Virus record (IMG/VR): IMGVR_UViG_3300032282_004692
Coordinates: 1 to 40,810 of that record
Length of the DNA: 40,810 bases
Source of the DNA: a virus
Reading direction: 5' to 3' (one strand)
In this document: one piece after another, positions 18,607 through 28,110 of the stretch
How the letters are laid out: each line of letters starts with the position of its first letter
How positions within the stretch are numbered: position 1 is the first letter of the stretch
Notes under the pieces: model-generated
The model's database searches: none
What the model saw: only the letters and a program-made list of their open reading frames with translations
Told to the model about the DNA's origin: nothing
Translations under genes and position numbers: made by a program

Positions 18607-20328
18607 TTACACAAAAATATCTCTGGTGTAAATGACAACGTTTTGCATTGATTGCACAAAGTCGTCAGTTTGTGTGGAAAGTTTTTCTGTACTATCTATA
18701 CGAGAAATTGTTTTATTTGATTCAATATTTTTAGAGTTAATATTATTTTCTCCTGTTTTTAATGTAGAGTTTAGATTAGTTTGTGTCGATTGATTTACAT
18801 TGAACAATTTATTTTTTATAACATTTGGAATATTTTGAATCAAATAATTAATAAAATTAGATTTTTCTATATTTTCCTTCGTGTTAGTATTTGTATAAGT
18901 TTTTGGTTGTACTTCTGGTTGTGTTGTTTGATCTATTGTAAGATTTAAAGCATTATTTTGCATCAAATCAAACATAACTTTCTTTGACATTTTGCTTTGT
19001 ACTGACAGCTGTTCAATTAAACCTTTATAAATTTGAGTTGTTTCTTGTTTAAAATCATCTTCTATTTTTTGAAATTTTTTCTCGAATAAAATTTTCAAAA
19101 TTGTTTGTCCCATTGGTCTTCCCAACGGAATAATGATAAGAGGTTCATTAATACTTTCAACATCAATTAATGTTGGTCTATCAACAACATATTGAGATAA
19201 TTCATTTTGCGAAGATTGAAAATCAATTTGATAATCTTTATCAAATAGTTTTGGCATAATAAGTCCACCAGAAGCTTTACGCATTTCTTTTAAAATTCCT
19301 TTTGTTCTTTGAACTCTTTCTGCAAATCTATTTCCTGGAACTCCTTCATACAAAGAAAGAAAACTATTAACTGCAGATTCTATTGTTGTTTGTTTTTTCA
19401 AATCTGCAATAACTCTACCTTTGTATGGAGCACGATTATCTAATTCCCAAGTTAAGTAATTGAAGTTATCTTGGTCTGTAGCTGCTCTTCCTCTTTTTCC
19501 AGGTCCACCACCAAGAAACTTTGTAATAAACACATTCAATCTATCGCCAGGAGTATTGCTAATATTAGTCCACTGAGGCCAACCATAGCCAACATAAGTT
19601 GCGCCGTATGGTGGGGGAAGTGGCTCTTGTCTATTATATGGACTGCTGTTTTCTACATTATATGGAATCAAAGATGATTCCCAAGACATAGTACCAAAAA
19701 TGGCAGCAGCTTGAACGTCAGTCAATCCATACTTAGTCATCATTTGTTTTGCTAATACAGCACCTTTTTTATCTACAGATCCTGTTTGAATTCCTGTTAA
19801 ATCTTCAGTAATCGATGATGCTATTGTACCACCAGCAATAGCAGTTAAAGTTTTTTTCAATTTTTCAATTTTTTCACTATCAGTCATTTCGGTAGTTGCT
19901 ACAATCTTATCTTCTTTATCAGCATCTTCTACTCGTTTTGAAAGATAATTTTGTAATTTTGTGTGCTGCTTTTCTAATATAATATCTTCAATTTTTATTG
20001 TTTGAATTTTATAATAAGTTGTATATGTAAGAGTAGATAAAAACTTAATTAAATTATCAAGAGTTTTTGTCAGACGAAGTAAAAATCCTGGTTCTAATTC
20101 GAATTCTAATCTATTTTTCTTTGCAAGAATTTTTGGTGTTAATGTTTTTTGAGAAACATTTTCTTCTGCACCAAGTATTAAAGAATCAATAGATAAGTCT
20201 TTTCTTTTAAGGTAATTAATATAAGCGTTAAAATCTAAGTTTTTACTAGATCCACCAGCAAAAAACCTTTTAATTATGGGAGATAAAGGTTTAACTCTAT
20301 TTAAAAGTTGTGGATTTTTGCCGAACAT
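18607..20328 (-). CDS. Virion protein with tail lysozyme domain
   Basis: 573 aa. The N-terminal ~190 residues are helical. Residues about 195-350 form a phage tail lysozyme (Phage_lysozyme2-like) domain: GLTDVQAAAIFGTMSWESSL with probable catalytic E217, GYGWPQWTNI, and a helical end with FLSLYEGVPGNRFAERVQRT. The C-terminal ~200 residues are Asn/Thr/Gln-rich and low in complexity. The ATG overlaps the stop of the 1177-aa gene (TAATG). It probably helps digest peptidoglycan during DNA entry, alongside the second lysozyme domain in the upstream gene. Confidence 0.75.
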   Translation of the reverse strand: MFGKNPQLLNRVKPLSPIIKRFFAGGSSKNLDFNAYINYLKRKDLSIDSLILGAEENVSQKTLTPKILAKKNRLEFELEPGFLLRLTKTLDNLIKFLSTLTYTTYYKIQTIKIEDIILEKQHTKLQNYLSKRVEDADKEDKIVATTEMTDSEKIEKLKKTLTAIAGGTIASSITEDLTGIQTGSVDKKGAVLAKQMMTKYGLTDVQAAAIFGTMSWESSLIPYNVENSSPYNRQEPLPPPYGATYVGYGWPQWTNISNTPGDRLNVFITKFLGGGPGKRGRAATDQDNFNYLTWELDNRAPYKGRVIADLKKQTTIESAVNSFLSLYEGVPGNRFAERVQRTKGILKEMRKASGGLIMPKLFDKDYQIDFQSSQNELSQYVVDRPTLIDVESINEPLIIIPLGRPMGQTILKILFEKKFQKIEDDFKQETTQIYKGLIEQLSVQSKMSKKVMFDLMQNNALNLTIDQTTQPEVQPKTYTNTNTKENIEKSNFINYLIQNIPNVIKNKLFNVNQSTQTNLNSTLKTGENNINSKNIESNKTISRIDSTEKLSTQTDDFVQSMQNVVIYTRDIFV

Positions 20329-23300
20329 TATTCAATAACTCCCCTTATTGTGTCTTGAATATAATAAAGAGTTTCGTCCGATTCTTGTTTCCTAATATCA
20401 AAACTATATTGTTTTGATGATTGTCTAACTATGTCGTGTGATTCCAAATCAACTGTATTTAATTTATTTAATGTATTTTTTGGTTGTGTAATGGTGTTAT
20501 CGAAAGATATGATATTATTATGCTTTACATTTTCAGTAGATTTTTCAAAATAATTCTGAATTAAAATTAAATTTTTGTTGTGAATTTCTTTTAATGATTT
20601 ATATTTTTCAATAGTCATGGTGTTTATAAAATTACTCATGCGACTAATTGGAATTAAAAATTCTATTCCAGCTTCTCCAACTAAAATTTGTTTTGTAGAA
20701 ACAATTCCTCCTTTTGCAAATCCTTCACCCAATTTAACTTTTTTTGCTGGAGATGGCACAATATTTTCATGTGCGTCAAATAACTTCTGGAACCAATTTC
20801 TATTTTTCCATGCGGCTAATCTATTTTCATAATCTTTTTGATTTTTGTTTTGAGCTGCCTTCTGTTTTGATACAATAAACTCATACACACGTCTTGCTTG
20901 TTCTTTGCGTTTTTCCATTTGTACATATAATGGATTTGCTCCTTCCATGATTTTTTCAAAATTTTCTGTTGCCGTTATATAATTTTCTGCATCACGTCCA
21001 GAAAGTTTTGTACCTTTATAATATGGTGTTGATGCTTCTTCTACCAACCAACCAAGTTGACCTTCTAAACTTGAATCAAATGATTCTCCTCTGCCGTTTG
21101 TTTTTTTATTCCACCATTTTCTACCAGCTTCAAATCTAACTGAGCTCCATTGTGCGATTCCCAATCCACCGCCACCACCATGTTGAAGTTTTTTGGGATC
21201 CATTCCTTCAGATTCGTGTAACAAATTTCCAATCCAACCAGAAGCTTCGGCGGCAGTTAATTTTAATTTAGAATTCATCAAATATTTAATTGCAAATTGA
21301 ACATTCTTGTTACTTGAAACGTGATAATCTGGAGTATCAATTTTTGGTCCACCCTTGCCGCCACCAGCAGCATCTGGTTTACCGTATCCACTATCATTTT
21401 TTTTATTGCCTAACATAAGCCAATTAATGTATCCTTCTGGATTTAAATTATTTTTACTGCCCTCATAATATTTTTCGTTATGAATTTCAAAGTGTAAATG
21501 TTCTCCCGTTACTCGTCCTGTTGCACCAGTTCTACCAATAATTCCACCAGCAGGAACTTGCTGACCTTTTGAAACATTTACTTGTGATAAATGACCGAAT
21601 AAGAATTGTTTATTTGCTTGAGGGACCCACGCAACAACAAAATGTCCATATCCACTGCTTTGATTATTTAAACTAGAATCGGTAGCAATAATTTCTGATT
21701 TTGCTTTAATTCCAATATAAGTTCCAGTTGGAGTTCCAATATCAACTCCAGGGTGTCCACCAACATCTCTACTATTTGAAACACCATAATGTTGAGTAAT
21801 GGGATAGCTTCGTGGTTCTATTTCACCAGTAATACTTCCTGGCGGTGGAGGAGGAGCTTCGTCGCCACCACCTCCACCAACGGCAACAGCAAGACCACCA
21901 GCAATACCTAAAGCAGCTCCAAGTTCTATTGCAACATCTTTTAAATCTACTTGTTTTCTTTCGGAAGATGCCTCTACTTTTTCATATTCAAATTCAAATT
22001 GTTTATCTTCTTGAGATATTAAACGTTTTGTAAGTTTTTCGGTTTGAAGAATTTGAGTTTTATTTGCCGCAGCTTTAATCTTATTCTTTCTATATGAGTT
22101 TAAGAAAAGGTTAACAGCAGTAAAGAATTTATTAACTCTTTTTGCAAATCGTTTGAATAAATTTGATTCAAATCTTTTTTGATCTGAAGGACGAACAAAA
22201 GAAAGTAATTTGTGTTCTGGAACAACAAAATCAAATCCACTTTCGCCCAATATTAATTTAGTTGGTGAAGTAACTAATTGAACACCTTTTGGTCCAAAGA
22301 TATATTCTCTTTCTCCAGATTCGCCAACTAAAGAAAGAGTTGATTTCTCAATAGTTCCGCCTTTTGCAAATTTTTCTTTTGGAACAATTTCAGTTTTTGG
22401 TTGGACAAAAGAAGTAGAAGAAGTTTTTTCAGTTGGAATAATTTTTGATTTTGGCGTAACTTTTGCGAGAGGAAGTGAAAGTTGACCAGGAGTTTCATAA
22501 TCAATTTTTGGTTTTTGGATTTCATCCAAAACATAACAAAACAAACCATTGCTAGGATTAATAAATTTATCAACAATTTTAAAACTGGTATTATTGGGAA
22601 TGAGAACTTCATTTTCACCCAAATTATTGTTAGCTAATTTTCTTCCCGTCTTGCTAAAAATAATAACAAACGTACATTTTTCTAAATTTGGTTCATTTTT
22701 TTCTCCCGTTCCTATTGAAGCAAATTGAAGTGCAGTTTTAATGCTGGTACTGCAAGACATAAAACCATAATCAGTATAAGTTTGACCAACTTCGCCAAAA
22801 TTTTTAAGACTTGGAATACCGCGATAGACCGTTGTAACATGAGGAGGAAGTTTCTCAAGAGTTCTTCTTAAACGATACGCAAAATATAAAAATTTATTGC
22901 CAAATCGTGATTCTAAATCTAGAACATCGCCTGGTAAAAAATCAGCTTTTCCCTTAAGTGGTTTTATATCTTTAACTTGATTTCTTCTCAAATATTTGTT
23001 TACATCTTCATATGTTGTATCACTAAAAAGTTCCTTTTCTTCTGCTGGTAAATATTGTGCTCCATATGAAGCTGCTTGATACCAAGAAATAACAGATATA
23101 TTTCGTTTATCTATTTCATAATCATAATCTTCGGAAGGAGGTTTATTAATTTCTTCTAAACTTTTTCGTAATTTTTTTTGTACTGGGGGGAGATATGGAA
23201 GTAATCTATTTGTTTCACTAACAATATTTCGAATGTTTGGAAGTTCTAATTGACCTGAAATTTCTGCTTCTTCTGGTCTTGTTATTACTCCTTTTATTAT

Positions 23301-23861
23301 ACGAGGATCTAAACTTTGTACTTCTACTGGTCTCCATCCATTCGTAAGATATAAGTTTTTTAAATCTGGATCAACGAAATTTTCATAATCAATATAATTG
23401 CCATCTTCATCAACATAACTTAAAATTTTTATTTTTTCAAAATTTGCGAGAACAAGATATTCATCTTTACCACTGTGCGTATTTGGTCCTTTTAAAAAAA
23501 CAGCATCAGCTTCATCTCTAAGCGCATCACCAAGATTTCCAATAAATTCTCCATTTGCTTCATCATATTCTATATCATCATCATAATCAGAAGCAAATCT
23601 TTTTAATCCTTCTAATCCATCTTTATCACAACCATATTTTGACTGTACTTCATAAGAAAGACCTAAATCTTCAATGTCTAATCGCATTGGTCTGTCTTTA
23701 GGTTCATCTAGAACCAGAAGAACTGCTCCATGAATTCCATAGTTTTCTTTTGTTGCTGTTTGTTCATTAGCAAGCTGTTCGTCTAAATGACCTTGCTCCG
23801 CAAGATTATCATAATCATAATATAAAAATTTTGATAGATAAGCAATTTTTGGATAAATCAT
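20328..23861 (-). CDS. ADP-ribosyltransferase / M23 peptidase / tail lysozyme fusion protein
   Basis: 1177 aa with three enzyme-like domains. (1) An ADP-ribosyltransferase, about residues 250-440, carries the full R-S-E set: R347 in VYRGI, S371-T372-S373 in MSCSTS, and E416-N-E418 in GENEVLIP; ExE implies arginine as acceptor. Residues 1-160 (ADAVFLKG, DEYLVLANFEKIKIL) may be a second, degenerate ART-like fold. (2) An M23 endopeptidase, about 685-800, has H703-x3-D707 (HPGVD), H757 (FGHLS) and H788-x-H790 (EHLHFEI). (3) A tail lysozyme, about 855-1000, has E883 in LLHESEG and GLGIAQWSS. Tape-measure-like motifs LVGESG, LILGESGFDFVVP and LVGEAGIEFLIP lie between and after them. A Gly/Pro linker (663-675) precedes M23. 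Likely a virion protein delivered at infection. Confidence 0.85.
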   Translation of the reverse strand: MIYPKIAYLSKFLYYDYDNLAEQGHLDEQLANEQTATKENYGIHGAVLLVLDEPKDRPMRLDIEDLGLSYEVQSKYGCDKDGLEGLKRFASDYDDDIEYDEANGEFIGNLGDALRDEADAVFLKGPNTHSGKDEYLVLANFEKIKILSYVDEDGNYIDYENFVDPDLKNLYLTNGWRPVEVQSLDPRIIKGVITRPEEAEISGQLELPNIRNIVSETNRLLPYLPPVQKKLRKSLEEINKPPSEDYDYEIDKRNISVISWYQAASYGAQYLPAEEKELFSDTTYEDVNKYLRRNQVKDIKPLKGKADFLPGDVLDLESRFGNKFLYFAYRLRRTLEKLPPHVTTVYRGIPSLKNFGEVGQTYTDYGFMSCSTSIKTALQFASIGTGEKNEPNLEKCTFVIIFSKTGRKLANNNLGENEVLIPNNTSFKIVDKFINPSNGLFCYVLDEIQKPKIDYETPGQLSLPLAKVTPKSKIIPTEKTSSTSFVQPKTEIVPKEKFAKGGTIEKSTLSLVGESGEREYIFGPKGVQLVTSPTKLILGESGFDFVVPEHKLLSFVRPSDQKRFESNLFKRFAKRVNKFFTAVNLFLNSYRKNKIKAAANKTQILQTEKLTKRLISQEDKQFEFEYEKVEASSERKQVDLKDVAIELGAALGIAGGLAVAVGGGGGDEAPPPPPGSITGEIEPRSYPITQHYGVSNSRDVGGHPGVDIGTPTGTYIGIKAKSEIIATDSSLNNQSSGYGHFVVAWVPQANKQFLFGHLSQVNVSKGQQVPAGGIIGRTGATGRVTGEHLHFEIHNEKYYEGSKNNLNPEGYINWLMLGNKKNDSGYGKPDAAGGGKGGPKIDTPDYHVSSNKNVQFAIKYLMNSKLKLTAAEASGWIGNLLHESEGMDPKKLQHGGGGGLGIAQWSSVRFEAGRKWWNKKTNGRGESFDSSLEGQLGWLVEEASTPYYKGTKLSGRDAENYITATENFEKIMEGANPLYVQMEKRKEQARRVYEFIVSKQKAAQNKNQKDYENRLAAWKNRNWFQKLFDAHENIVPSPAKKVKLGEGFAKGGIVSTKQILVGEAGIEFLIPISRMSNFINTMTIEKYKSLKEIHNKNLILIQNYFEKSTENVKHNNIISFDNTITQPKNTLNKLNTVDLESHDIVRQSSKQYSFDIRKQESDETLYYIQDTIRGVIE

Positions 23862-23862
23862 A

Positions 23863-26082
23863 TTATCGATACATGTCTAGCCAGCTTGCAGCAGAAGCTT
23901 TTCTATTGATAAGAGGAACATTTGAATTTGGAATATTAACTCCTGGAGGAGGTGAAGTACTCTCGTGAACTTTGGTTGGTTTTTGTTTTGGAATTCTTAA
24001 ATCAACAGGAGGAAGAGGAATAATATTAGGTGGAGTTGTAGAAGTTTTTGAATTTCTCAACATATTTTGTTTAGTTTCTAATTGAGAATATTTACTTGTT
24101 TTTGTTGACTTATCAAATCTGGTATCATTTTTAAATGCGTTTGGTCCACTTATCTGATCATATTGTGCCGTGGACCTTGGAAATAACATATCACCCAATA
24201 AAGGTAATCTTCTTGTAAGTGGAGCAGCGGCAGTTGCCAAAGCAGCATTACCAAGGGCACGAACTGGACGTTCAAATGCTTGTCTGACTGCGGGAGTAGG
24301 TCCAGTTTTAACCATTTCTGGAGTAAATGCTTTTAATGGTCTCCAACCCTTAACTCCAGATGCACCTTCTCTAAATGCTTCGTTTGTTCTAGTAAGTTGA
24401 TTACGATCATCCGCCATCAATGTTCTCCAAGAAACATTAGATTCATTAGGAACTCTTGTATTTCTTCCCTTATTCCACCAATTTACAAGATTATTTACAA
24501 TTGAACCACCAGCATGATTAGATCTTGGCTGAAGGAATCTACCTAAGGTGTTATTATACATTTCACCACCTTTATTTTTACCTATTTGACCACCAAGCCA
24601 ACCTCCACCAGGAATTCCTGTTGATCTTCCTCTTTGTTCTCCAATTACTTCGCCACCTTTTTCAAATATAGTTTTAAACAAACCACCATCAGCAAAATTT
24701 CCTGTGCCAGACAAATAACGGAAAAAGTTTAATGATGACGAATCATGTAAATTTACATCTCCAATAGAACCACCTGCTCTTGGCTGAAGGAATTTACCTA
24801 AGGTGTTATTATACATTTCACCACCTTTATTTTTACCTATTTGACCACCAAGCCAACCTCCACCAGGAATTCCTGTTGATCTTCCTCTTTGTTCTCCAAT
24901 TACTTCCCCGCCTTTTTCAAATATAGTTTTAAACAAACCACCATCGGCAGCAGTTGCAATTGGCGAGGGTTCAGATTTATTCATCGGAATTGATGATGTA
25001 GCAATATCATTATTTGGTCTATACAACAATCCACCCGATGCTTGATTAAGAGCTCCAAGAACTTCTACTGCAGTGGCACCACCGCTTACTGCACCATTTA
25101 ATATTTGACTACCAACACTTGCAGCAGCACCAACTGCTGGCACAGCTGTCTTATATAATTGATCTGCGGATGGTAGAGTTATTGGATTTTTCTTTAAATC
25201 AAATGCATTTTTAACATCTCCAGTAAATCCCGTTAATGCTTTACCAGCAAAAGTATTTCCGACTGATGCAAACCCTGGCAATCCCCCTTCAAAATCAGGT
25301 ATTGGAGGAATTAATGGAGGAATTGGCGGAATATCAATTTTTGGCATTCGTGGCAATTGTTGCCACCATGGTTTACCCTGAGGTTTTGGAGCAGGTGCTG
25401 GCTTTGGAGCAGGTGCTGGAGCAGGTGCTGGCTTTGGAGCAGGTGCTGGAGCAGGTGCTGTCTTTGGAGCAGGTGCTGGAGCAGGTGCTGTCTTTGGAGC
25501 AGGTGCTGGAGCAGGTGCTGGAGCAGGTGCTGGAGCAGGTGGTGTTGGTGGTCCTGGTGGTGTTGGTGGTTTTTTTGGTAAATTTATGCAAACACAATCT
25601 TTTGGTTTTGCATCATTTCTAAAATCTACAGTTTTGTCAAGAAGATATTCTTGAAATGTATCTAAATATAATTCTTTTTTCTTTTCCGATAAAACTTTTT
25701 CTTGAATGGTTTGAATATTTTGAAGTTTGAGAAGATTTTTCAATAACTTCTCAGTTGTTTCCATCTTCTGTTCGATGGATTTTAAATACGCATTTAAAGT
25801 TTTATTTTTTACTTTGGTAGGAAGAATTGACTCCAGTTTAAATGGAGGAATTTGAGGTATTACAATATTCTGTTCGTAAAGTCCAGCAATTATTTCTGGT
25901 GTATCTGGAGCTTTAGGGATAACTTCAAAGTTTGTATTCTTTGAAGATAATAAAGTTGGTACGTTTGGAGCTTGGGGAGTTGTTGTGGAAGGAGTCGCAC
26001 CAGCAGGAGTTGCCGCAGGGGGAGCTGCTGCAGGAGTTGGGGAAGGAGTTGGTTGTTGATTTGGCGAATTATTATTCGGCAT
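23863..26082 (-). CDS. Large Pro/Ala-rich tail protein, tape-measure candidate
   Basis: 739 aa. Residues 1-50 are Pro/Ala/Thr-rich. A helical stretch (about 95-150: LKSIEQKMETTEKLLKNLLK) follows. Next comes a 10-residue Pro-Ala-Lys repeat (about 180-235, TonB-like rigid linker), then Ala/Gly-rich sequence. Two near-identical ~57-residue copies (GGLFKTIFEKGGEVIGEQRG ... GKNKGGEMYNNTLG) end with a C-terminal Pro-rich tail. The ATG overlaps the gp51 stop (TAATG). It is the first gene after the gp26/gp51 frameshift pair, the place where many phages encode the tape measure. I see no long uninterrupted coiled coil, so the tape-measure role is a hypothesis. Confidence 0.6.
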   Translation of the reverse strand: MPNNNSPNQQPTPSPTPAAAPPAATPAGATPSTTTPQAPNVPTLLSSKNTNFEVIPKAPDTPEIIAGLYEQNIVIPQIPPFKLESILPTKVKNKTLNAYLKSIEQKMETTEKLLKNLLKLQNIQTIQEKVLSEKKKELYLDTFQEYLLDKTVDFRNDAKPKDCVCINLPKKPPTPPGPPTPPAPAPAPAPAPAPAPKTAPAPAPAPKTAPAPAPAPKPAPAPAPAPKPAPAPKPQGKPWWQQLPRMPKIDIPPIPPLIPPIPDFEGGLPGFASVGNTFAGKALTGFTGDVKNAFDLKKNPITLPSADQLYKTAVPAVGAAASVGSQILNGAVSGGATAVEVLGALNQASGGLLYRPNNDIATSSIPMNKSEPSPIATAADGGLFKTIFEKGGEVIGEQRGRSTGIPGGGWLGGQIGKNKGGEMYNNTLGKFLQPRAGGSIGDVNLHDSSSLNFFRYLSGTGNFADGGLFKTIFEKGGEVIGEQRGRSTGIPGGGWLGGQIGKNKGGEMYNNTLGRFLQPRSNHAGGSIVNNLVNWWNKGRNTRVPNESNVSWRTLMADDRNQLTRTNEAFREGASGVKGWRPLKAFTPEMVKTGPTPAVRQAFERPVRALGNAALATAAAPLTRRLPLLGDMLFPRSTAQYDQISGPNAFKNDTRFDKSTKTSKYSQLETKQNMLRNSKTSTTPPNIIPLPPVDLRIPKQKPTKVHESTSPPPGVNIPNSNVPLINRKASAASWLDMYR
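24523..24694. repeat. 172-bp direct repeat, copy A
   Basis: Matches 24778-24949 at an offset of exactly 255 bp (85 codons) with about four mismatches. Encodes GGLFKTIFEKGGEVIGEQRG through LQPR in the 739-aa protein. The near identity points to a recent in-frame duplication or ongoing recombination. Confidence 0.9.
24778..24949. repeat. 172-bp direct repeat, copy B
   Basis: Second copy of the in-frame repeat at 24523-24694, with about four differences (for example CTTCGCCACC against CTTCCCCGCC). Both copies keep the reading frame. Confidence 0.9.
25384..25540. repeat. 30-bp minisatellite encoding Pro-Ala-Lys linker
   Basis: Tandem units built from GGAGCAGGTGCT, interrupted about every 30 bp by CTTT-containing variants. 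Read on the minus strand they encode repeated PAPAPAPK(T/P)A decapeptides. Such sequence is a stiff extended spacer in other proteins. Its length is likely to vary by slippage. Confidence 0.9.
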
Positions 26083-26207
26083 TACTGCTGTTGCGCTCTA
26101 CGTGCTTTTTCTTGTTCTATAAATGCAAGTAACAAATCAACATATACATCCCTTTCCCAGGGCATCATATTCTCAATCTCAGTCAAAGAGTATTTATGAT
26201 GCTGCAT
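26082..26207 (-). CDS. 51: gp51-like hub assembly protein, probably made by -1 frameshift from gp26
   Basis: From the only AUG (26207) it encodes 41 aa, MQHHKYSLTEIENMMPWERD and on; the MMPWERDVYVDLL core is typical of gp51-like proteins of T4-like cyanophages. The frame stays open upstream of the AUG (..ENFYKLNFNL) back to the slippery site at the end of gp26, with no AUG and no Shine-Dalgarno. A -1 shift there would give a 296-aa gp26-gp51 fusion. T4 gp51 is a catalyst of hub assembly not found in the finished virion, which agrees with a chaperone role. The stop overlaps the next gene's ATG (TAATG). Confidence 0.8.
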   Translation of the reverse strand: MQHHKYSLTEIENMMPWERDVYVDLLLAFIEQEKARRAQQQ

Positions 26208-26230
26208 CAAATTGAAATTCAATTTATAAA

Positions 26231-26276
26231 AGTTTTCCAGAGAATTTTGGAAAACTGCTATGCGAAAAAATTTCCC
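26231..26276 (-). promoter_or_regulatory. Programmed -1 frameshift signal between gp26 and gp51
   Basis: On the minus strand GGGAAATTTTTTC (26264-26276) contains three overlapping in-phase X-XXY-YYZ heptamers: GGGAAAT, AAATTTT and TTTTTTC. After a 7-nt spacer that holds the gp26 stop (TAG, 26258-26260), AGTTTTCC (26249-26256) pairs perfectly with GGAAAACT (26231-26238), an 8-bp stem with a 10-nt loop. A -1 slip enters the gp51 frame exactly. This is the textbook layout for frameshifting; efficiency is not known. Confidence 0.8.
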
Positions 26277-26971
26277 AAGCCCTCAATTGTGATATCACTT
26301 TCAACCTTTGTTTTTGGATTATAAACTTTAAATGTATGTTTCAATTTTGGCATAGTATTAAAAAATTCTTGAACCTTTTGATATTGTGTGGGATTTAAAG
26401 ATTCAACAAACTTTACCATTTCATCTCTTGTAGAATTAGAAGATTCCCAAATTTCTTCTGAGTTGTATATTTGTTCGATGCAATCCACAGCAAAATCAAA
26501 CATTATTTCTGCTTGTGGTCGCGATTCTTTAGCATCATTTTCCATAACATATTTGACATTTGGATATTTCATAATTAACCCATATCCATTTTTTAAATCA
26601 ATTTTATTCGTGTGATCTTTTGATCTTTCTACTTTAATATCTTCAATATTAACTTCAACATCAACTTGAGTTTCATTATCATCTGGACAAGTTACGGTAA
26701 ATTCCAAAACTTCACCAACAGATCTAGCACGAATGTTTAAAAACAAGTATTCAATATCAAAAGTAGAAAGAGATTCAATTTTAATTCGACCTTGAACACA
26801 TTCTTGAACAATCTGAATGATTGCATTAGTAATTTCTTTTTGATCTTCAGATTCCATAGCAAGAAGAAGAATTTTTTCTTCTTTTACTAAAAAGGGTCTG
26901 TATTTTACAGTTTTACCAGTTGAAGGAAGAGTAAGTTCATAAACTGGTGCATTAATCTGGGGAAGTGCCAT
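26258..26971 (-). CDS. 26: Baseplate hub subunit gp26 (tail assembly chaperone-like)
   Basis: 237 aa, close to the T4 gp26 length of about 208. The opening MALPQINAPVYELTLPSTGK, then KYRPFLVKEEKILLLAMES and VQECVQGRIKIESLSTFDIE, is the usual T4-like baseplate gp26 pattern. Cys in VTCPDDNE is kept. The last codons (GLGNFFA) are read from the slippery sequence. It sits between the tube-like gene and gp51 in the late hub operon. In the frameshift model it corresponds to lambda gpG and the fusion to gpGT. Confidence 0.88.
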   Translation of the reverse strand: MALPQINAPVYELTLPSTGKTVKYRPFLVKEEKILLLAMESEDQKEITNAIIQIVQECVQGRIKIESLSTFDIEYLFLNIRARSVGEVLEFTVTCPDDNETQVDVEVNIEDIKVERSKDHTNKIDLKNGYGLIMKYPNVKYVMENDAKESRPQAEIMFDFAVDCIEQIYNSEEIWESSNSTRDEMVKFVESLNPTQYQKVQEFFNTMPKLKHTFKVYNPKTKVESDITIEGLGNFFA

Positions 26972-26987
26972 TCAAATAACCTCGCGT

Positions 26988-27641
26988 TTAATAACCTGAA
27001 ACAACAAATTTTTCGTATTTAAAATTAACTCTTAATTTTGTAACTATAGCTGGTCCATATGCAAGAGGTGTTGTCTCTATGTTATATGGATATGCCTTAT
27101 ATAATTTATACACGATTGAATCTCCACCATTTGCAGCAAATGGTGTTTTATAAAATTTTCGAACTTTAATATAATCACATGTAAAATCATCATAATAATT
27201 TACAGTAGTGATGTTTGTTCTGGAAGCTTTATTATCAAAATCTTTTTCATCTAATCTAGTGCCACTGTTCAATCCTCTTTCAGGAAACATGAAAGAATAC
27301 CAAGCATCAAAAAATTTTGAAGGATCAGCTTTATTTGTCATCATAAAGCTCAAATAAAAGTCATTATACAACTTCCCATGGGGAAATTGCAAGAGACGAC
27401 CAGTATACATACCGTCTATTTCTTGTGTAGCTGCATATTGCCCAGGAAGAGAAGCTTCATCGCAAAGAAAAAGCATATTGCTTTGAGCACTTCCTTCAGC
27501 ATCAGTTGAAAATCCAGCATTGGATAAAACAGTTTTTAATTTTGAACTGGAAATGCTAAAAGAAACCTCATACTCATTAGAGTATGACATTCCCGCATCA
27601 GTTTCAACTATTGAACGAAGTTTGCTTATGGCATTGGTCAT
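26988..27641 (-). CDS. Tail-tube-like baseplate protein (gp54/gp19 fold)
   Basis: 217 aa. The stretch FLCDEASLPGQYAATQEIDG, then RLLQFPHGKLYNDFYLSFMM and FFDAWYSFMF, follows the gp19 tail-tube pattern (C..A.LPG, strand-rich middle, W-containing end). Size and place in the hub operon suggest the gp54-type tube initiator, which caps the hub and starts tube assembly, rather than the abundant gp19. First gene of the minus-strand late operon. Confidence 0.6.
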   Translation of the reverse strand: MTNAISKLRSIVETDAGMSYSNEYEVSFSISSSKLKTVLSNAGFSTDAEGSAQSNMLFLCDEASLPGQYAATQEIDGMYTGRLLQFPHGKLYNDFYLSFMMTNKADPSKFFDAWYSFMFPERGLNSGTRLDEKDFDNKASRTNITTVNYYDDFTCDYIKVRKFYKTPFAANGGDSIVYKLYKAYPYNIETTPLAYGPAIVTKLRVNFKYEKFVVSGY

Positions 27642-27673: not shown

Positions 27674-27681
27674 TATTTATG
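27674..27681 (-). promoter_or_regulatory. Late promoter of the hub operon
   Basis: CATAAATA on the minus strand fits the T4/cyanophage late consensus NATAAATA exactly. It is 33 nt upstream of the ATG at 27641 and overlaps the start codon of the divergent gp4 gene. Confidence 0.6.
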
Positions 27682-28110
27682 GCGTATTCTGGGAAGTTTT
27701 ACCCCACAAATACTAAAAAATATAGAGGAAATCCCACAGAGGTTTATTATCGTTCTTTGTGGGAACTTAAGTTTATGAAATGGTGTGATTATAATTCAAA
27801 TATTTTAGAATGGGGAAGCGAAGAAATTGTAGTTCCATATCGTTCACCTTTAGATAATAGATATCATAGATATTTCGTTGATTTTTATATTAAAATCAAT
27901 ACGTCAAATGGAATTAAAAAATATCTCATAGAGATTAAACCAAAAAAACAAACACAAGAACCAGCAGTTCAGCAAAGAAAAACTAAAAAATATATTCAAG
28001 AAGTTACCACATATGTAAAAAATATGGCTAAATGGGAAGCAGCAAAAGAATTTTGTGCCGACAGGAATATGGAATTTAAAATTCTTACCGAGGAGCATCT
28101 TAACGTCTGA
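27679..28110 (+). CDS. 4: Head completion protein gp4
   Basis: 143 aa, close to the T4 gp4 length of about 150. MAYSGKFYPTNTKKYRGNPT, YYRSLWELKFMKWCD and YFVDFYIKI...KYLIEIKPKKQ form the typical pattern. The family has a TnsA/endonuclease-like fold with D in VDFYIK and E-x-K in IEIKPK. In T4, gp4 acts late in head completion. The stop overlaps the next start (TGATG). Confidence 0.88.
   Translation: MAYSGKFYPTNTKKYRGNPTEVYYRSLWELKFMKWCDYNSNILEWGSEEIVVPYRSPLDNRYHRYFVDFYIKINTSNGIKKYLIEIKPKKQTQEPAVQQRKTKKYIQEVTTYVKNMAKWEAAKEFCADRNMEFKILTEEHLNV

Follow-up and report, generated by a model that had tools for sequence, protein, structure and literature searches.

A conserved slippery site probably joins gp26 and gp51 of a T4-type virus by programmed -1 frameshifting

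The virus record IMGVR_UViG_3300032282_004692 (IMG/VR), from a marine T4-like virus, was analysed over a stretch of 40,810 bases, here called the window, in which T4-type genes for gp2, gp4, a gp5-like protein, gp26, gp32, gp48, gp53, gp59 and PhoH were found. This report concerns its gp26 and gp51, which to judge from the sequence are very likely one gene read in two ways by a programmed -1 frameshift, yielding a tail assembly chaperone (TAC) with a short and a long form. At the sequence level the frameshift in the window is confirmed and strongly conserved, and a preliminary description which had proposed it was upheld on this point and on the truncated annotation of gp51, whilst its further claims, on the joint action of three heptamers, the evidence from ribosome sites, a tape-measure neighbour and novelty, fared less well. 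The parts of the unit are given below (aa, amino acids; nt, nucleotides; bp, base pairs; pN/pS, the ratio of nonsynonymous to synonymous changes).

26258..26971, minus strand: gp26, the short form (TAC-N, gpG analogue), 237 aa; matches PF12322 T4_baseplate (E=4e-69) and phrog_150 (E=8e-76)
26264..26270, minus strand: slippery heptamer T_TTT_TTC, in the phase of gp26; T_TTT_TTN in 103/103 relatives
26258..26260, minus strand: gp26 stop TAG, within the 7-nt spacer GCATAGC (26257-26263)
26231..26256, minus strand: stem-loop with a 9-bp stem AGTTTTCCA/TGGAAAACT, candidate 3' stimulator, by folding; counterpart in 47/68 unique relatives, with compensatory changes
26082..26264, minus strand: -1 frame extension, the predicted true N-terminus of 'gp51', which with gp26 gives the 296-aa long form (TAC-NC, gpGT analogue); phrog_634, pN/pS 0.33
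26082..26971, minus strand: complete frameshift unit gp26-gp51, by sequence reading

The match of the window gp26 to PF12322 scores 233 bits against a curated cut-off of 24.5, and its 3' end reads TTG GGA AAT TTT TTC GCA TAG. A -1 slip on T_TTT_TTC (26270-26264) leads to ...NFF-RIAVFQNSLENFYKLNFNLMQHHKYSLTEIENMMPWERDVYVDLLLAFIEQEKARRAQQQ, from where the frame stays open to the TAA at 26084-26082; reading the sequence thus bore out the stop-free entry into gp51, the 296-aa fusion and the 7-nt spacer holding the gp26 stop. The junction was then compared across relatives, of which 80 came from a protein search of viral contigs and 103 were available after annotated phages and further scans were added, falling into 30 clusters at 70% identity. 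T_TTT_TTN is present in every one of the 103, at 0-2 codons from the gp26 stop (last base C in 96, T in 6 and G in 1), and is followed by an open -1 frame into gp51, inside which two contigs end. All 30 clusters keep the site, where codon usage predicts about 0.44 per cluster, and TTT TTC stands at 96/103 slip sites as against 3/98 other Phe-Phe pairs of the same genes. The preceding codon is TCT, AGT, AAT, GAT or GCT, so that its third base is T throughout whilst the amino acid varies. Carriers of the site include Schizotequatrovirus, Emmerichvirinae, Pootjesviridae, Emdodecavirus, Menderavirus and unclassified phages. The frameshift joining the two genes, as first proposed, is thus strongly supported. 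The three overlapping heptamers described earlier (GGGAAAT, AAATTTT and TTTTTTC) do all lie in phase, but only TTTTTTC is conserved, heptamers of like shape occurring at the other two places in 5/103 and 1/103 relatives; their joint action was therefore rejected.

The extension itself bears the marks of a translated sequence in the fusion frame. Its C-terminal 46 aa match phrog_634 (E=6e-22), a family that carries the annotation gp51, 'baseplate hub assembly catalyst'. Across the relatives, codons 2-18 of the extension, which run from the slip site to the first ATG of the window, have a pN/pS of 0.33 in the fusion frame and of 1.3 in the other two; judged by these substitution patterns, purifying selection acts on the stretch ahead of the first ATG in no other frame than that of the fusion. 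That first in-frame ATG is codon 19 (26207), with a TTG at 26222, and the second open reading frame overlaps in the -1 frame without a start of its own in the window, a feature which becomes ambiguous in those relatives where an ATG lies close by. A start at the ATG would, as noted earlier, remove the in-frame sequence ENFYKLNFNL. However, the missing ribosome site ahead of it, also cited at that time, is not diagnostic and constitutes weak evidence, as 57/80 gp26 start codons in the group lack one too; with gp26 itself usually without such a site, this argument was dropped. That the short gp51 genes of the annotations are missing their true N-terminus is strongly supported. In S-RSM4 and P-SSM2 (L093 6380-6514; L092 6657-6830) gp51 has been annotated from different in-frame ATGs, each losing part of the conserved extension.

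Folding of the window gives a stem of 9 bp and a loop of 8 nt after the 7-nt spacer, so that the stem-loop first described as a perfect 8-bp one is present but slightly longer. At least 7 of 8 positions pair at the window register or at +1 base in 47 of the 68 unique cyanophage-type relatives, compared with 0-1/68 at slid registers. One pair of the stem covaries, being A-T in 10 sequences, T-A in 19 and G-C in 12, and in the window and two relatives the stem is built from an entirely different sequence at almost the same position. Compared with shuffled sequence, the folding energy is lower, with a mean z of -2.5 at the site versus -0.6 elsewhere in the gene; an Rfam search returned only a sub-threshold chance match. 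As the hairpin is missing from 21/68 of these relatives and its register is not conserved outside the cyanophage-type group, the stem-loop would be a lineage-specific stimulator at most.

Genes 26 and 51 of T4 lie on opposite strands in a divergent arrangement, which makes a frameshift joining them impossible. The heptamer is absent from both genes of T4, where gp26 reads GAG TTC TTT GAG and gp51 GTG TTT AAG, and in T4-like contigs nine gp26 ends and nine gp51 genes could be read, all of them without the slippery site at the corresponding place. T4 has a normally started gp51 and no slip site, a combination which the preliminary description had named as speaking against frameshifting; yet T4 gp51 proves to be a full-length paralogue of the fusion type. 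Its residues 1-201 match PF12322 (E 4e-52), and in full it aligns to positions 13-280 of phrog_150, which comprise the gp26 domain plus extension (profile comparison probability 97.4%). A profile of the extension matches T4 gp51 at 207-245 but not T4 gp26, and phrog_634 is matched by the window extension and T4 gp51 alike, whilst T4 gp26 ends two residues beyond the slip position. Sequence comparison thus demonstrates homology of the fusion with T4 gp51 and of gp26 with T4 gp26, and from this domain layout and end point T4 has one short gene and one of the fusion type, so that the exception supports the frameshift idea instead of refuting it. The window carries one frameshift unit and not two separate genes; the two-gene layout is T4-specific and provides no criterion for the family. 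In RB43 (L101 3001-4294), a two-gene layout differing from the divergent T4 pair was observed, gene 51 being followed collinearly by gene 26 with a slight overlap.

In Aeh1, gp26 ends in GAT TTT TTC GAC TGA and the extension follows in the -1 frame. Sullivan et al. (2010; PMC3037559) reported that gp51 reaches only about 20% of its usual length in cyanophages and is missing in Aeh1, without giving frameshifting as an explanation; frameshifting here, set against a full-length paralogue in T4, would account for both. Judged by the wider spread of the frameshift, gene duplication in the T4 branch would have come later.

A different situation was found in CBA120, SS3, VAP7, Kuja, K445 and SUMAE (the last two counted with the Ackermannviridae by gp26 resemblance), which keep the extension in the -1 frame without a T_TTT_TTC heptamer. 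The codons at the slip place are ATT TTC, GTT TTT, CTT TTT or CTT TTC, with TAATG present or not, and CBA120-type phages have no ATG near the extension. Ends of gp26 of this type (L099, L091, L114-L128, L084, L088, L100, L104) read ATT TTC ATT TAA, GTT TTT CGC TAA or CTT TTC/TTT. Taking these groups together, we would give roughly even chances to a reading in which frameshifting prevails across the wider T4 superfamily, is probably ancestral there, and was lost in the T4 branch through duplication into a short 26 and a long 51. On the same reading the cyanophage site carries a covarying 3' stem-loop of a kind described as rare among phage tail frameshifts, and the Ackermannviridae keep the -1 extension with non-standard sites which may slip on a single Phe tRNA.

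Architecture, together with a publication which counts T4 gp26 and gp51 among the hub assembly chaperones (PMC3004832) and the tail chaperones published for T4-like phages, supports a role like that of lambda G/GT, and on this analysis the gp26/gp51 pair is very probably a tail assembly chaperone. AlphaFold models were made of gp26 (predicted local distance difference test, pLDDT, 87) and, as a natural long form in place of the fusion, of a T4-like gp51 (pLDDT 84); both share the same order of strands and helices, with additional C-terminal helices in gp51. Foldseek gave no significant match to these models in the PDB, the top entries by probability, neither significant, being 3fgx (0.54, E 2.2) and the HK97 tail assembly chaperone 2ob9 (0.47, E 1.4), which may be taken as a hint only. 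A sequence search of solved structures with the gp26 and gp51 profiles found nothing relevant.

The unit is flanked by two genes of the tail region.

26988..27641, minus strand: upstream neighbour, a tail-tube family protein of the gp54 (tube initiator) type; PF23849 and phrog_45, the latter PHROG also matched by T4 gp54
23863..26082, minus strand: downstream neighbour, a 739-aa Pro/Ala-rich protein in the tape-measure position; its start overlaps the gp51 stop (TAATG)

The 739-aa protein is rich in Pro, Ala and Lys and carries long PAPAPAPK repeats, and an ADGGLFKTIFEKGGEVIGEQRGRS... segment occurs in it twice in nearly identical form; its counterpart in phiN3 and ValKK3 gives weak tape-measure matches. 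Two adjacent tail-region proteins (20328-23861 and 18607-20328, both minus strand) each have a Phage_lysozyme2 domain, the former also Peptidase_M23 and, just under the curated cut-off, a weak match to ADP-ribosyltransferase (E 2e-4). The gp4-like head closure protein (27679-28110, plus strand) was matched to PF08722, the N-terminal domain of TnsA-like endonucleases (E 3e-23).

In the mechanism we infer, including its frameshift efficiency, protein ratio, binding partners and stimulation by the stem-loop, the majority of ribosomes would end at the gp26 UAG and release the 237-aa short chaperone, whilst a fraction would slip back one base on T_TTT_TTC as two Phe tRNAs re-pair, aided in the window phage by the stem-loop 7 nt downstream. 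The slipped ribosomes would produce the 296-aa long form, which would carry about 60 additional residues as a C-terminal domain of helices. If the system resembles lambda gpG/gpGT, the tape measure would be bound by many copies of the short form and few of the long one; the extension of the latter would bring in subunits of the tube or hub, after which the two forms would depart.

Several observations weigh against frameshifting in a chaperone of this kind. The 739-aa neighbour has no convincing family match and, like its counterparts, no detectable similarity to T4 gp29, so that the tape-measure gene thought to lie next door was not demonstrated. The hairpin is missing in the 21 relatives mentioned above, and the structural match to HK97 2ob9 is not significant. 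Moreover, an in-frame ATG stands at extension codon 3 in 60/101 relatives and at codon 2 in 7/101, so that in about two thirds of them a separately started gp51 is possible. The fullest form of this objection holds that gp51 is a separate short gene, re-initiated at an ATG, GTG or TTG beside the gp26 stop, with the T run incidental, and the annotation of P-SSM2 gp51 as a gene of its own from an ATG accords with it. However, there is no ATG in the first 15 extension codons of 16/30 clusters, the window among them, and the extension of relative L097 offers no possible start codon at all; conservation of the slip site extends to its nucleotides, and T4 carries the product as a single full-length protein, which leaves this explanation distinctly improbable. 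A combined arrangement, in which the long form arises by frameshifting and a free gp51 domain is made in addition where lineages have TAATG or TAAGTATG, draws on the ATG which directly follows the gp26 stop in many other cyanophages and by the stop-start layout of ValKK3, VAP7 and EniLVp02, where a second, separately started product would be possible; the window has no such stop-start, and we regard this arrangement as unlikely, at perhaps one chance in several.

Slippage of the RNA polymerase, which would add or drop a U at the T run without any shift by the ribosome, could in principle be promoted by a homopolymer of six T's. However, six T's are short for efficient polymerase slippage, conservation follows codon phase and length (NNT TTT TTC), and a covarying stem-loop 6-7 nt downstream suits ribosomal frameshifting, so that this possibility appears very slight. 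That a sequencing error or decay has split one gene is suggested by nothing beyond the split itself and is refuted by the identical split, frame and place in 103 records and 30 clusters; its probability is negligible.

Programmed frameshifting between gp26 and gp51 would account for two published oddities, the short cyanophage and missing Aeh1 gp51 (PMC3037559) and the statement in the review of Atkins et al. (2016) that the tail frameshift is conserved 'except T4' (PMC5009743). It would also follow that gp51 in many cyanophage records is an annotated fragment which should be joined to gp26. The two lineages present a natural experiment, in which one protein pair is made via frameshifting in one and via two genes in the other.

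The novelty implied in the preliminary description was overstated. Vladimirov, Gautam and Davidson (2022; Virology 566:9-15), as reported in PMC10885494 and PMC12846349, identified tail chaperone genes in T4-like phages; according to the former (PRFect), they found that some T4-like phages have a short and a fused long gene in place of frameshifting, and the latter cites them for poly-T frameshift signals in such phages. As far as these citing papers convey, the core of the present finding is thus already known or very close to what has been published. Not found in the literature searched, in which that study is represented through citing papers only, were the stem-loop with its covariation, the broad table of taxa, the resolution of Aeh1 and the odd Ackermannviridae sites.

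Among known systems, lambda slips at G_GGA_AAG and the window phage very probably at T_TTT_TTC, and both would obtain a short and a long product from one start by a -1 frameshift; no sequence relation was seen, nor was a search for one made. In lambda the order is major tail tube, chaperone, tape measure, as compared with a gp54-type protein upstream and the 739-aa protein downstream in the window. The gpG and gpGT products overlap, share one start through low-level -1 frameshifting, and are both absent from the virion (PMC5009743). Closer in their signals are SPP1 gp17.5/17.5*, for which a UUUUUUC heptamer identical to that of the window has been proposed (PMC6316719), and P2 E/E+E', which slips at TTTTTTG (PMC3091744), both being T-run heptamers in tail chaperone genes. 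The P2-like genes lack a downstream hairpin, such structures being described there in rare cases only (PMC3091744), whereas most cyanophage-type relatives here possess one. At the tail chaperone locus of the Vandenendeviridae and Andersonviridae (phage Adele), a conserved -1 extension past the poly-T motif GTTTTT was recognised by the same kind of inference, in other phage families and with a different motif (PMC12846349). The closest likeness, so far as the citing papers describe it, is with the T4-like gp26/gp51 chaperones, which belong to the same family and share the short form, the long form with its C-terminal extension and the T-run signals. T4 and its close relatives make this pair from two genes and the window phage by frameshifting, and the system is a further example of a kind already known in phages, the relatives of T4 included.

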